DNA from: an uncultured Bacteroidia bacterium
GTDB lineage: Bacteria; Bacteroidota; Bacteroidia; Bacteroidales; ML635J-15
Assembly: GCA_902791865.1 (NCBI GenBank)
Contig: CADAXK010000001.1
Coordinates: 1 to 64,000, forward strand
Direction of reading: 5' to 3'
Length of the DNA stretch: 64,000 bases
A model generated the notes under the pieces. That model was given only the letters and a program-made list of their open reading frames with translations, ran no database searches and was not told the DNA's origin. Position numbers and translations under genes: made by a program. This document shows positions 15,842 through 21,300 of the stretch, one piece after another; the stretch's first letter is position 1; each line of letters opens with the position of its first letter.

Positions 15842-16934
15842 GGCTTAAGTCGCAAAAAGAGACCTGGAATCCTTGTAAGTTGTTGATTTTTATTTGTATT
15901 ATAGCAGTCAAAACATTTATGACAAAAAAAATGCTTTCATTGTGGGTCGAACAACACGATAAAAAAGGGTCGCGAGAATGGCCATCAAAGATGGTATTGC
16001 AAGGATTGCAAACGATATTTCGTCGGGCATCATAGGCTGACAGACTACGAGGTTAACTCCGCTTTTGCGCAAGGAAATCTTACCGCAAAAGATCTTGCTT
16101 CAAAATTTGACGTTTCAAGGAGCACAATTCATCGCCATCTTGCCAGCAAGTATTGTTATGCTTTGCCAAATAAAGCAGGACGATATGTCATTGTTATGAT
16201 GGATGCGACATACTGGGGCCGTCGTTTTGGCGTAGTCATATTCAAGGATGCCATAGAAGGTGATGTCCTCTGGTACAAGTTCATTTATAAGCGAGAGACT
16301 GTAGCCGACTACAAAGAGGGGGTAGACTATCTGGCATTGCATGGCTTTACCATTCTGGCAGTTGTCTGTGATGGTCTCAAGGGGCTGAGGAATATTTTCC
16401 CTGAATGCAAGTTTCAGTTGTGCCAGTTCCATCAGGTAATGGCGGTAAAGACAAAACTTACGCTACATCCGAAACTGGAAGCTTCCATAGAGTTGCTGGA
16501 ACTTTCGCGGTTGCTTTGCCATACGGACAAGGAATCGTTTGTCGGTGCATTTGGAGAATGGGAAGAGAAATGGCATGATTTCCTTCTTGAGAGAAGCGCT
16601 GATGCCAATGGGAAAACCCACTATGTACACAAAAACTTGCGTAGTGCGTATTTAAGCCTGAAGAGAAATATGCCGTGGCTGTGGACATGGTACGACTTCC
16701 CGGAACTAAATATCCCAAACACAAACAATGCTTTGGAATCGCTAAACTCGGATTTGAAAGCAAAACTTAATCTGCACAAGGGCATCAGCCTGGAACGTAG
16801 AAAAGTGTTTATCCAAGATTTTTTAAAAGCACATAAGCCTTTGAAAAAGAAATAGTTCAAGCTTGTTTTAGGTCTCTTTTTGACACATATAACATTTTCA
16901 AAGCAATTTCAGGTCTCTTTTTGACACATACGCC
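15842..16934 (+). mobile_element. IS256-family (variant zinc-binding type) insertion sequence, complete
   Basis: The ends 15,842-15,865 and 16,911-16,934 are 24-bp inverted repeats agreeing at 20 positions; both begin GGC and share CAAAAAGAGACCT. The element is flanked by an 8-bp direct repeat TTACCTTT (15,834-15,841 and 16,935-16,942), as expected for the 8-9 bp duplications of the IS256 family. It is 1,093 bp long and holds one transposase gene. The right terminal repeat is present twice in tandem (inner copy 16,870-16,889, outer 16,911-16,930, identical over 20 bp). The target was the -7 box of the HD-domain gene. Confidence 0.88.
15919..16855 (+). CDS. IS256-family transposase (variant Zn-binding), needs a frameshift near its start
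   Basis: From 15,932 to 16,855 one frame is open and encodes a zinc ribbon (CFHCGSNN...WYCKDCKRYF), a helix-turn-helix (LTAKDLASKFDVSRSTIHRHL) and a DDE catalytic domain: Asp in VMMDATYW, Asp in AVVCDGLKGL with CQFHQ after it, and Glu in NNALESLNSDLK. This is the IS1249-like, zinc-binding branch of IS256 transposases. No start codon lies in that frame before the zinc ribbon: it is closed by TGA at 15,921. ATG 15,919 is followed by ACA and a run of eight A (15,924-15,931); with seven A the reading would be continuous (MTKKCFHCG). Either one A was gained and the gene is broken, or slippage on A8 produces the enzyme. A shorter product from TTG 16,163 would lack the DNA-binding part. Confidence 0.8.
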
Positions 16935-17943: not shown

Positions 17944-18034
17944 AGGAAAGGTTGTTTTTTCTTTGCCCCCATATTAAGGCCTTTAATGACATTAAGGCCC
18001 TTAAAGTAATTGGGGGCAAAAAACAACCTTTCCT
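17944..18034. terminator. Long-stem inverted repeat between convergent genes
   Basis: AGGAAAGGTTGTTTTTT plus GCCCCC on the left (17,944-17,970, with a CTTT bulge) pairs over 23 bp with 18,012-18,034 (GGGGGC then AAAAAACAACCTTTCCT). The 41-nt loop holds two 'attaaggcc' units that can also pair. It fills the whole gap between the HD gene and the dipeptidase gene and covers the latter's stop codon. A bidirectional terminator is the simplest role, but the stem is unusually long. Confidence 0.65.
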
Positions 18035-18809
18035 ACTCTATCGGGAATGTAAAATATGTATCAGGATAAGGTTCGTTCTTTAGAACAAAGTGCCACCACT
18101 CGGTGCTAATGCCTCTGAATCCGTGACGAACCATTGCATCGCGCAGAATCATACGATTCTTGTGCTGTTCGGGAGTTACGCCAGCATAGTCGGGATGACT
18201 TTCCTCGCCTAGCCAGTCGAATGGTGAGCCCATGTCAACCTCCTTTTCTGTATTCATATCGAAAAGCGTGAGGTCGATGGTTGAACCACAGGTATGTCTG
18301 CTTTTCTTTGCAATGTAACCTTCCTCAAACAGACGAGGCTTATCAATATCCGGATAGAAATAGCGTTTCATAAGAGTGTCGGAAGCTTCGTGCGACCAGC
18401 GAACAAAATGATCTACAGCACATTGTGGACGATATGCATCGAAAATCTTCAGACGGTAGCCCATAGCTTTCACATCGTCGCTGACGGCCTTTAGGCTATC
18501 GGCAGCCTCCTTGGTAAGGTAAGCGATAGGCGCATTGTAACCATCGACGCGCACACCCATAAAGTTGAATGTGCTGAAATAACGGATTTCCAGAATTGCA
18601 TCGGGAACTACATCAGTAACAACGACAAAACCATTCTTAGATGCCTCTGATACAGTCGTATCGGCGGTAGTTGCTTCAACTGTTGAAACTTCTTCCTTGA
18701 CTGCGGTTTCGGGTTCACTAACACTAGCATTTTCCTTGTTCTGGCACGACAAAACCATCACACACATTGCCAGTGAAACAATTGCATAAAGTAATCTTCT
18801 TATATTCAT
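18033..18809 (-). CDS. VanX-like D-alanyl-D-alanine dipeptidase, lipoprotein
   Basis: A 258-residue M15D peptidase. The signal ends in a lipobox, VLSC (Cys22), so it is probably lipid-anchored in the periplasm or outer membrane. Zinc ligands are in SRHTCGSTIDLTLFD (His, Asp) and the catalytic pair in EWWHF (Glu, His); DAYRPQCAVDHFVRWS is also typical. Such enzymes split D-Ala-D-Ala from peptidoglycan turnover (DdpX-like). No vanH, vanA or vanRS genes are nearby, so a housekeeping role is likelier than glycopeptide resistance. It has its own -7 box (18,833-18,840) and follows the rSAM-cupin operon on the same strand. Confidence 0.92.
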   Translation of the reverse strand: MNIRRLLYAIVSLAMCVMVLSCQNKENASVSEPETAVKEEVSTVEATTADTTVSEASKNGFVVVTDVVPDAILEIRYFSTFNFMGVRVDGYNAPIAYLTKEAADSLKAVSDDVKAMGYRLKIFDAYRPQCAVDHFVRWSHEASDTLMKRYFYPDIDKPRLFEEGYIAKKSRHTCGSTIDLTLFDMNTEKEVDMGSPFDWLGEESHPDYAGVTPEQHKNRMILRDAMVRHGFRGISTEWWHFVLKNEPYPDTYFTFPIE

Positions 18810-18874: not shown

Positions 18875-19327
18875 TTATCTGCACAACCTTTCTATCAACG
18901 CACCATGCTGAGGATAAGCGTGCAAAAGGTTTTCTTTTTTCGCAAGTTCGAAATTCTCAAATTTGAACGCTGGTGCCACTGCGCATCCGACAAGAGAAAA
19001 GCCCTTCTTGCCAGGCAATTCTGCAGCAAACCATTGTTCAGGTTCAATTACAACCTGCATTTCGGCATCTGCAGACAAATGATGAACAACTAGTTCGCCA
19101 TTGACATCAATAACATATATATCAAGGCATTCGCCAGCATGGTAGTACCATATTTCTGACATACCATGCAACTTGTGGAAAGCCGAAAACTCATCTCCAC
19201 AAAGCATATAATATATGGTAGAGATTTGCTTTTCTCCACTTTCATCATTACCATAAACCTGACGATAGTATCCGCCTTCGGGATGTGGCATAAGTTTTAG
19301 TTTTTCAATGTAATGCTTATAATCCAT
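18875..19327 (-). CDS. DUF985 (cupin_5) family protein
   Basis: A 150-residue cupin. The conserved beginning LKLMPHPEGGYYRQVYG, the ISTIYYMLCGDEFSAFHKL strand with its His, EIWYYHAGE and the C-terminal VGCAVAPAFKFENFELA are those of DUF985. Family members are metal-binding sugar-isomerase-like cupins with no settled reaction. The ATG follows the stop of the radical SAM gene by only 2 bp, so it is the third gene of a tight operon (lipoprotein, rSAM/SPASM, cupin). Confidence 0.92.
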   Translation of the reverse strand: MDYKHYIEKLKLMPHPEGGYYRQVYGNDESGEKQISTIYYMLCGDEFSAFHKLHGMSEIWYYHAGECLDIYVIDVNGELVVHHLSADAEMQVVIEPEQWFAAELPGKKGFSLVGCAVAPAFKFENFELAKKENLLHAYPQHGALIERLCR

Positions 19328-19329
19328 AT

Positions 19330-20403
19330 TTATTTCCCATTAATCATTTGATACTGACACATTTTCAACTTACCATTTTCATCGCGGAGATGCATTCCAT
19401 TGCCCTGGCAATATCGCCAAACCTTGCACGATTTGCAGTCGCCAGTACGCATCCATTTGCGGTTGCGGAACTTCTCGAAGCGTTTTTCCCACACCTCCCA
19501 GAACGAATCGCTGTAGATATTGCCCTGATTGTAGTCGCTTCGGATACTCAAGCAACCAGATATAGCCCCATCGGCACGGATGGATGCCACATTCACGCCC
19601 GAACTGCAGTTGAAATACTTGCGCCTAACCTCGCCCTCGTAGCGACCGAGAAATCCGTCGCAGGCATAACTTGTATCAATCTTACCTTCGAGACGAGTCA
19701 ATTTTATAAAATCCATCATCCGCACAAACTCCTCGTTGCTTAAGCGCAATTCGGGGTCACCGGCGGCTCGTCCAGACGGGAACACGCTGAACAAACGCCA
19801 CTTGCGCACACCGTTTTCAATCAGAAAATCGCGAAATTCGGGCAAATATTTTATTGTGCGCTTGTTCACGCAAGTAATAACGTCCCACACTAGCCCACTT
19901 TGCTTTTTCAAAGCCTCGATGGCACGCATTGCATTTGCATAGCTTGCTTCGTGCCCACGCATCCAGTTATGGTCGTCGGAAAAGCCATCGAGACTTATTG
20001 CAATGGAACGCAGACCATTACGTACGAGCTCAGCAAGTTTTTCATCGGTGAGCAACATGCCGTTTGTCACCATGCCCCAGATAAATCCACGCTCGGTGAT
20101 TGCCCGTCCGCATTCGGCAATGTCGGCACGCACAAGCGGTTCGCCTCCTGTTGTAATCACCATGATGTCGTATGTAGAAACGTGGGCTTTTATATCGTCG
20201 AGAACTTTCACGAAATCGGCAAGCGGCATATCCTCCTGCTGCGAAACCACACGGCAGTCGCTTCCGCAGTGACGGCAGTTGAGGTTGCAGCGCAAGGTGC
20301 ATTCCCAGAAAAGCTGGTGAAGATGATGCTCGTCGGCGCGCAACGAAAGCACCGCACGATTCAATTCAAGCGAAAGACGCTTATATAAAGAGAATTCCGA
20401 CAC
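19330..20403 (-). CDS. Radical SAM/SPASM protein (rSAM/lipoprotein system type)
   Basis: A 357-residue radical SAM enzyme. The [4Fe-4S]-binding motif is C39-x3-C43-x2-C46 (TLRCNLNCRHCGSDC), TTGGEPL follows as the SAM-binding GGE motif, and a C-terminal SPASM domain holds Cys in YFNCSSG, ISGCLSIR, GDCKSCKVWRYCQG and KMCQY for auxiliary clusters. SPASM proteins usually modify peptides or proteins. As I recall, the family TIGR04133 of Bacteroidota, which pairs with a lipoprotein gene, looks like this. The start is GTG at 20,403, whose G is also the last base of the lipoprotein stop codon (TAGTG), so the two are translationally coupled. The likely substrate is that lipoprotein; this is inference. 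Confidence 0.93.
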   Translation of the reverse strand: MSEFSLYKRLSLELNRAVLSLRADEHHLHQLFWECTLRCNLNCRHCGSDCRVVSQQEDMPLADFVKVLDDIKAHVSTYDIMVITTGGEPLVRADIAECGRAITERGFIWGMVTNGMLLTDEKLAELVRNGLRSIAISLDGFSDDHNWMRGHEASYANAMRAIEALKKQSGLVWDVITCVNKRTIKYLPEFRDFLIENGVRKWRLFSVFPSGRAAGDPELRLSNEEFVRMMDFIKLTRLEGKIDTSYACDGFLGRYEGEVRRKYFNCSSGVNVASIRADGAISGCLSIRSDYNQGNIYSDSFWEVWEKRFEKFRNRKWMRTGDCKSCKVWRYCQGNGMHLRDENGKLKMCQYQMINGK

Positions 20404-20957
20404 TACTGCTTGCTGTTATTCTTAATGCTTTCTATTTCGTTGTCGATTTTTTCAATCTCATGCTGCAGAGAATCACGATTTTCGCGCAATTTCTTGTTGT
20501 GATTGTTATATCTATTAATCATCTCTGGCGGGCCGTAAACTTTTGCTCCCGACCTATTGTTAACAGTTTCATCTATAGCATCCAAGCGTTCCTTAAGAGA
20601 ATCTTTTTCCGACTGGAGCATTTGCAATAGTTCATTCTGCAACGAATCGGCTTCGTGACGCAGTTCGCGTGTATGAGCACTGTACTCCTGAAGAACTTCC
20701 GGCGAACCATACACGCACGACATTTCACGATCCTTGATTATAGCGCGCAACTTCTCGATACGAGCCTGCAGTTCAGCACGACGTGCATTTATCGAATCCT
20801 TGGGCATGGCGACATTTTCGTTTTCACCGAGTTCATCATTGTCGGCGGGAGGCACAGCTTCGGCACTTTCGGACGTGCGTTTAGTCGACGTGCATGCCGC
20901 AACCACAGCGGTAGCCAGCGCCAATATTCCAATCCAAGTCTTCTTTACTATCTTCAT
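20403..20957 (-). CDS. Coiled-coil lipoprotein with two VYG[S/P]PE repeats, putative rSAM substrate
   Basis: A 184-residue lipoprotein. The signal peptide ends in VVAAC (Cys22). After an acidic, disordered linker (about 30-55) the rest is an internal duplication: helix, VYGSPE (82-87), helix, then helix, VYGPPE (140-145), helix, with a spacing of 58 residues. The flanking helices are charged and heptad-like (SLQNELLQ and SLQHEIEK in matching places). Cys81 precedes the first motif. Lipoproteins partnering rSAM enzymes of the same type often show a YG-x-P motif, as far as I recall. ATG 20,957 was chosen because it begins the signal peptide and is placed correctly after a -7 box at 20,978-20,985. 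Confidence 0.88.
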   Translation of the reverse strand: MKIVKKTWIGILALATAVVAACTSTKRTSESAEAVPPADNDELGENENVAMPKDSINARRAELQARIEKLRAIIKDREMSCVYGSPEVLQEYSAHTRELRHEADSLQNELLQMLQSEKDSLKERLDAIDETVNNRSGAKVYGPPEMINRYNNHNKKLRENRDSLQHEIEKIDNEIESIKNNSKQ

Positions 20958-20977
20958 TGTTGTACAATTACGAAATG

Positions 20978-20985
20978 CAAAGATA
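20978..20985 (-). promoter_or_regulatory. -7 element of the lipoprotein-rSAM-cupin operon
   Basis: CAAAGATA on the plus strand is TATCTTTG on the minus strand, 20 bp before the lipoprotein start. No separate -7 box was seen before the rSAM or cupin gene. Confidence 0.6.
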
Positions 20986-21300
20986 ATGTAATTTACGATT
21001 GACGAATTACGATTTACGATTTTTTTGCGGCGCAACGTATTGCAAATCGGCGCAACGCATTGCGCCGCTACAATCATTGAATTGTTAAATTATTAAATCT
21101 TTAAATCCTAGAACATTGAACGTTAAACGTTGAACCAGAAACGTTAAACCTGAAACATGAAACCTGAAACGGGCGCCAGCCCACAGAAACGGGCGTTAGC
21201 CCATAGAAACCCAAAAACGGCGTCAGCCATTGAACGGCGAAGCCCTCAACGAAGTTAAACGGCGTAGCCATAGAAACCACACAAAAAAATATGTTGTAAA
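20986..21300. repeat. Intergenic repeat cluster: 'tacgattt' units, palindromes, micro-hairpins
   Basis: Three repeat types are stacked. First, 'tttacgattgacgaattacgatttacgatt' units (from 20,992, split here by a few differences). Second, two copies of CGGCGCAACG[T/C]ATTGC near 21,027-21,068, the second forming a CGGCGCAACGCATTGCGCCG palindrome. Third, five micro-hairpins (GGGC-gcca-GCCC, GGGC-gtta-GCCC, GGC-gtca-GCC, GGC-gaa-GCC, GGC-gta-GCC) with spacers such as CAGAAAC, ATAGAAAC and ATTGAAC from about 21,110. No gene is supported here. Confidence 0.6.

Follow-up and report, generated by a model that had tools for sequence, protein, structure and literature searches.

A TIGR04133 radical SAM enzyme and its YGxP lipoprotein partner in an uncultured member of the Bacteroidales, with splicease-type editing as the proposed reaction

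In a stretch of 64,000 nucleotides from an uncultured Bacteroidales bacterium (hereafter the window) the gene of a radical SAM enzyme with a SPASM domain starts within the stop codon of a lipoprotein gene and is followed by a cupin gene. This arrangement raises the questions of what the enzyme acts on, which reaction it might catalyse and whether the cupin has a part in it. An earlier note, made from the sequence alone, had taken the lipoprotein as the substrate and the cupin as a member of the same pathway. The features of the locus are the following:

18033..18809, minus strand: gene for a VanX-like (Peptidase_M15) D-Ala-D-Ala dipeptidase lipoprotein, judged outside the system
18875..19327, minus strand: DUF985 cupin gene, 150 aa, ATG at 19327, judged outside the system
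19330..20403, minus strand: radical SAM/SPASM gene (TIGR04133), 357 aa, GTG start at 20403
20403..20957, minus strand: lipoprotein gene, 184 aa, lipobox VVAA/C, proposed substrate
20526..20540, minus strand: second YGxP motif, V140-Y141-G142-P143-P144, at the break between helices 2 and 3, proposed modification site
20700..20714, minus strand: first YGxP motif, V82-Y83-G84-S85-P86, at the break between helices 1 and 2, proposed modification site
20978..20985, minus strand: -7 box TATCTTTG of the Bacteroidota promoter type, a consensus match only

The locus and the cupin gene

The three genes lie exactly where they had been placed before, the TAG of the lipoprotein gene and the GTG of the radical SAM gene overlapping by one base and the ATG of the cupin gene standing 2 bp downstream of the stop codon of the radical SAM gene; the VanX-like gene is found 65 bp beyond the cupin gene on the same strand. 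The -7 box TATCTTTG was also found again, its start 28 bp upstream of the lipoprotein ATG, as a match to a consensus that has 70 matches of this kind in the window. The arrangement of lipoprotein and enzyme is not due to chance, because the same order was found again in almost all relatives.

Upstream of the lipoprotein gene, the intergenic region 20993-21205 contains degenerate short tandem phrases such as GAAACGGGCGCCAGCCCACA and CGGCGCAACGTATTGC, each present twice, the latter also with an inverted partner. Comparison with Rfam gave no match. Elsewhere in the window, positions 16163-16855 encode a probable partial Mutator-type transposase (Transposase_mut, marginal score).

The product of the third gene is a DUF985 cupin, as had been claimed, matching PF06172 (Cupin_5/DUF985) with 121.4 bits (3.8e-35) against a gathering score of 25. 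The gene is probably co-transcribed with the pair, and its position on the same strand at a spacing of 2 bp in the window and in near relatives is what speaks for a three-gene pathway in which the modified residue or a sugar would be the target of the cupin. Against this, among the 13 genomes with a window-type pair the cupin gene is directly downstream in only seven (gap of -31 to +77 bp); in one it lies 1.26 kb from the pair, past an insertion, and in five it is on another contig (G009, G010, G019, G020, G023). No cupin gene occurs within 1.5-3 kb downstream of the more distant loci with a lipoprotein of the same class (L102, L105, L108, L113, L114), and DUF985 matches are present in 22 of the 31 genomes of the family, including relatives that do not have the window-type pair. 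Moreover, wherever the cupin gene adjoins the pair it is the VanX-like gene that comes after it; the VanX-like protein of the window, which carries a lipobox, scores 203 bits against VanX and does not reach the curated cut-off of 320. The survey thus upholds the order of lipoprotein and enzyme and not the cupin as a constant third gene. The adjacency is confined to a single subclade within the genus, and the best reading of the cupin is that of a neighbour on a shared transcript; it looks like a bystander and not a member of the pathway, and a three-gene pathway is very improbable.

The enzyme, the lipoprotein and the YGxP motif

The enzyme is a clear member of TIGR04133, with 539.5 bits over 348 of the 350 positions in a profile search (cut-off 425 bits), and Pfam confirmed the expected Radical_SAM (4.5e-24) and SPASM (3.5e-8) domains. 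It carries the CxxxCxxC-GS motif and a complete set of SPASM AuxII cysteines (C323, C326, C332 and C349). The AuxI cysteines are C248, C266 and C284, and nearly all TIGR04133 members have G, A or S in place of the usual CX3C cysteine. The GS after the third cluster cysteine, H145, W202 and R260 are conserved in at least 97% of 149 TIGR04133 sequences. The AlphaFold model from the single sequence was poor (pLDDT 48). The family was found in 23 of the 31 genomes of the taxonomic family, 96 of the 393 of the order (Bacteroidales) and three of the 395 in the phylum sample, and no relatives were found on viral contigs. Parabacteroides distasonis, a member of the Bacteroidales that can be cultured, also carries a TIGR04133 gene.

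The earlier note had pointed to a pairing of TIGR04133 enzymes with TIGR04134 lipoproteins. The enzyme agrees with this; the lipoprotein gave no match to TIGR04134 up to E = 1 in the profile search (cut-off 39.8 bits), only coiled-coil noise, and the related coiled-coil protein of L102 is likewise without a match. The window lipoprotein is composed of a signal peptide with the lipobox VVAAC, an acidic linker and three helices at residues 53-80, 86-135 and 144-183 (single-sequence AlphaFold, pLDDT 74.8, with much of the helices above 90), so that both YGxP motifs, about 61 and 119 residues past the lipobox cysteine, sit in predicted breaks between helices. This three-helix rod, in which VYGxP occurs twice, belongs to a class not modelled so far. 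Lipoproteins of this type occur in 13 genomes of the family, always adjoining a window-type enzyme (13/13), and in no genome that does not have the enzyme.

A second TIGR04133 gene is present in the same genome (G000:C2:368512-369546; L002, L071), and the lipoprotein encoded upstream of it contains ...QACYGTPNYRNEESFSYEMKMSGVVTD, with QACYGTP right at the lipobox. This sequence led us to search for features common to both lipoproteins, which gave YGxP, a motif that occurs twice in the window protein and had been overlooked in the earlier note. A pattern search for CYGx in the same genome was dropped, having given fewer matches than the reversed control.

We collected the flanks of TIGR04133 genes; for 145 genes the upstream flank was 450 bp or longer. 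In 121 of these neighbourhoods YGxP was encoded by an upstream ORF, and the immediate upstream ORFs, picked irrespective of the motif, contained YGxP in 112 and YG in 124 of 131 cases. Per 100 aa, the lipoproteins contained the motif 0.83 times and the other ORFs of 150 aa or more from the same loci 0.016 times, a difference of about 51-fold which is only approximate, because the background consists of mechanically called ORFs and the motif had played a part in choosing the lipoproteins; the count of 112/131 is not affected by that choice. Replacement of the tyrosine by F, W or H, or of the glycine by A or S, is nearly absent (FG.P, WG.P, HG.P, YA.P and YS.P together four, compared with 157 YG.P). 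The residue preceding the tyrosine is varied (E, C, K, V, M, L or A) and the one following the glycine is mostly T, V or S. In some partners YG is kept and the proline is not (L049 YGAQ, L120 YGPM, L134 YGTF, L148 YGTA, L155 YGTL, L163 YGTD), and at L099, L165 and L166 the YGxP lipoprotein is encoded farther upstream or downstream of the enzyme.

A few TIGR04133 members have no YG partner. One of these is L036, where the protein upstream is devoid of any YG (AQYMAIRPTG), either a genuine exception or a case in which the substrate is located elsewhere. At L141 and L151 two TIGR04133 genes stand in tandem, both accompanied by a lipoprotein of their own, and the first of these lipoproteins has AKYGDIYD in place of YGxP. 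At L117, L123 and L133 two differing YGxP ORFs lie upstream of a single enzyme, which may therefore serve two substrates. Outside the Bacteroidota, plasmid pTS1 of Treponema saccharophilum (L213) encodes a TIGR04133 enzyme and a TIGR04134 lipoprotein (SCYGMP) beside a gene for an Mpi-type serine recombinase; this spirochaete copy suggests transfer between phyla.

The YGxP partners belong to at least three unrelated scaffolds. The first is a beta-sandwich lipoprotein, TIGR04134 or related (weak CarboxypepD_reg matches), in which the motif often stands right after the lipobox cysteine (CYGTP); the second comprises short lipoproteins in which KYGxP occurs one to three times; and the third is the helical rod of the window, found outside the family at L102, L105, L108, L113 and L114. 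As the scaffolds differ in this way, it is the motif and not the fold that is retained.

Lipoprotein sorting signals of Bacteroidota lie directly after the lipobox cysteine, and in 48 lipoproteins the tyrosine is found at precisely this place. YGxP could then be a mere recognition or sorting element, for instance an export signal near the N-terminus, with the enzyme acting elsewhere on the protein. We find this improbable, given that the motif of other classes stands 6-80 residues from the cysteine, is present in two or three copies or is placed at the extreme C-terminus (ALYGVPVP in L105, ALYGVPMP in L113), and that no other feature common to all scaffolds was found. YG could nevertheless serve as a docking site.

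Altogether there is a strong case that the TIGR04133 enzyme acts on the lipoprotein. The proposal that the lipoprotein is the substrate is very likely correct, with a gene pair that recurs and a motif that is retained across the partners, and YG would be the modified site. The reservation that modification in the cytoplasm before export would be unusual was too strong: in Bacteroides, sulfatases destined for export are modified by anaerobic sulfatase-maturating enzymes (anSMEs), which belong to the SPASM radical SAM enzymes as well. These maturases resemble the present system in acting on an exported protein before its export, with a weak sequence match (4k37), and differ from it in converting a Cys or Ser of the sulfatase into formylglycine.

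Comparison with spliceases

The splicease PlpXY targets XYG and excises tyramine, and its working tag PIRPxYGLPI also contains YGxP (PMC10533398); PlpX has been placed in IPR026482 (PMC11002830). A similar core is found on a Nostoc plasmid, where an enzyme scoring 853 bits against TIGR04103 is encoded with a Nif11 precursor that ends in IALYGLPPELF, followed by a small ORF. We assume that IPR026482 equals TIGR04103 and hence take the latter as the PlpX family.

The window enzyme scores 125 bits against the TIGR04103 profile and does not reach its cut-off of 725; heme b synthase AhbD (128) and TIGR04053 (127) give scores that rival this one. Its identity to the Nostoc enzyme is 27% over about 330 columns (123 bits), and that of TIGR04133 to TIGR04103 is about 25%. 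The GDL maturase family TIGR03913, which shares 48% identity with the Nostoc enzyme, belongs with TIGR04133 to the wider SPASM group, and several of its DUF1843 partner peptides have PYG, AYG or LYG near the N-terminus; these partners differ from those of TIGR04133 in being short peptides with no lipobox, some of them with no YG. At L217, L218 and L219 XYG is often found at the N-terminus of the DUF1843 partners, as in MPYGVAIREA, a hint that the GDL family may share this chemistry.

Eight of the invariant positions of TIGR04133 (G47, S48, H145, W202, A213, R260, C266 and I281) are common to the TIGR04103/GDL group and are not shared with the representatives of NirJ, MftC, PqqE, TIGR04053 and TIGR04347, a small panel of five other SPASM enzymes; the reverse pattern was seen at two positions. 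G47, S48, H145, W202, R260 and C266 are thus among the likenesses to PlpX, together with the SPASM radical SAM architecture and a partner that carries XYG, often as YGxP. In contrast, TIGR04133 retains C248 and does not have the CX3C cysteine of AuxI that is present in TIGR04103, and its substrates would be exported lipoproteins. Neither a PlpY-like partner nor a Nif11/NHLP leader was found in the window or recurring beside the enzyme in the surveyed loci. In a maximum-likelihood tree TIGR04133 did not fall inside the TIGR04103/GDL clade; the tree is small and in practice unrooted, because distant sequences from the same genome draw the root, and it omitted the window protein, which was present in a separate alignment. 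AhbD enzymes that could serve as outgroups were not found in the order sample, and the Bacteroidota sample contained no TIGR04103 proper, just GDL-type relatives. When the PlpA core was searched for as a DNA pattern, all genomes together yielded six matches, which are due to chance and have no radical SAM gene. Because of the scores, the tree, the AuxI ligands and the absent PlpY and Nif11, the enzyme is not a TIGR04103 member, and we infer only that it works like a splicease.

We propose with moderate confidence that the lipoprotein undergoes splicease-type backbone editing at X-Tyr-Gly-x-Pro before export, because PlpXY targets XYG, the Nostoc core is ALYGLPPELF and invariant residues are common to TIGR04133 and the TIGR04103/GDL group. 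The enzyme may instead modify the lipoprotein at YGxP through different radical SAM chemistry, for example a C-C or ether cross-link of the tyrosine to a residue close by (cyclophane type), oxidative decarboxylation or epimerisation. SPASM enzymes catalyse many reactions, the enrichment of a motif reveals a site and not its chemistry, and both the low identity to known spliceases and the different AuxI ligand set leave room for such a reaction. Yet Tyr and Gly are both kept while X and the +1 residue vary, a pattern closer to the XYG rule of spliceases than to a cross-link with a fixed partner; Val and Pro are frequent at +1; and the residues common to the TIGR04103/GDL group favour splicing. 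We therefore regard another reaction as rather unlikely and rank the cyclophane reading second, behind splicing.

Proposed course of events and meaning

If splicing is the reaction, the substrate and the enzyme would be translated together and the enzyme would act in the cytoplasm on the new lipoprotein, at both YG sites in the breaks between the helices. The modified lipoprotein would then be exported and lipidated, giving a membrane-anchored rod with reactive ketoamide sites. Spliceotide ketoamides inhibit proteases (PMC11117315), therefore a protease trap is one candidate use of such a product; alternatively the ketoamide might form a covalent bond with an envelope partner that offers an amine or a thiol. 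YG as the modified site, the splicing chemistry, this order of events and the use of the product are inferred. As a broader and more tentative suggestion, TIGR04133 enzymes may be stand-alone spliceases, needing no separate recognition protein, that put a beta-amino ketoamide into envelope lipoproteins.

The TIGR04133/TIGR04134 pair is already known as an annotation (NCBIfam), in which the partners are described just as 'putative lipoproteins'; the literature searched made no mention of either family, and no stated chemistry was found. The window locus resembles this pair in having a TIGR04133 enzyme with the gene of a small YGxP lipoprotein directly upstream, and differs in that its lipoprotein is a helical rod with two motifs, whereas TIGR04134 is a beta-sandwich with one motif near the cysteine. 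As far as the comparison shows, the helical substrate class, the occurrence of YGxP in unrelated scaffolds and the prediction of a splicease are new, although Scott et al. 2022 (Chem) may overlap.

The shared XYG target makes the prediction precise and cheap, a change of -135.08 Da per site at a known position, and it covers a family present in roughly one in four of the Bacteroidales genomes sampled. If it is true, spliceases would extend from secreted natural-product peptides to resident proteins of the envelope, and those that act with no PlpY partner would be of use for protein labelling. The role of a reactive ketoamide in the bacterial envelope would then become a question, and common gut bacteria would have backbone-edited proteins that bear an electrophile anchored in their membranes.
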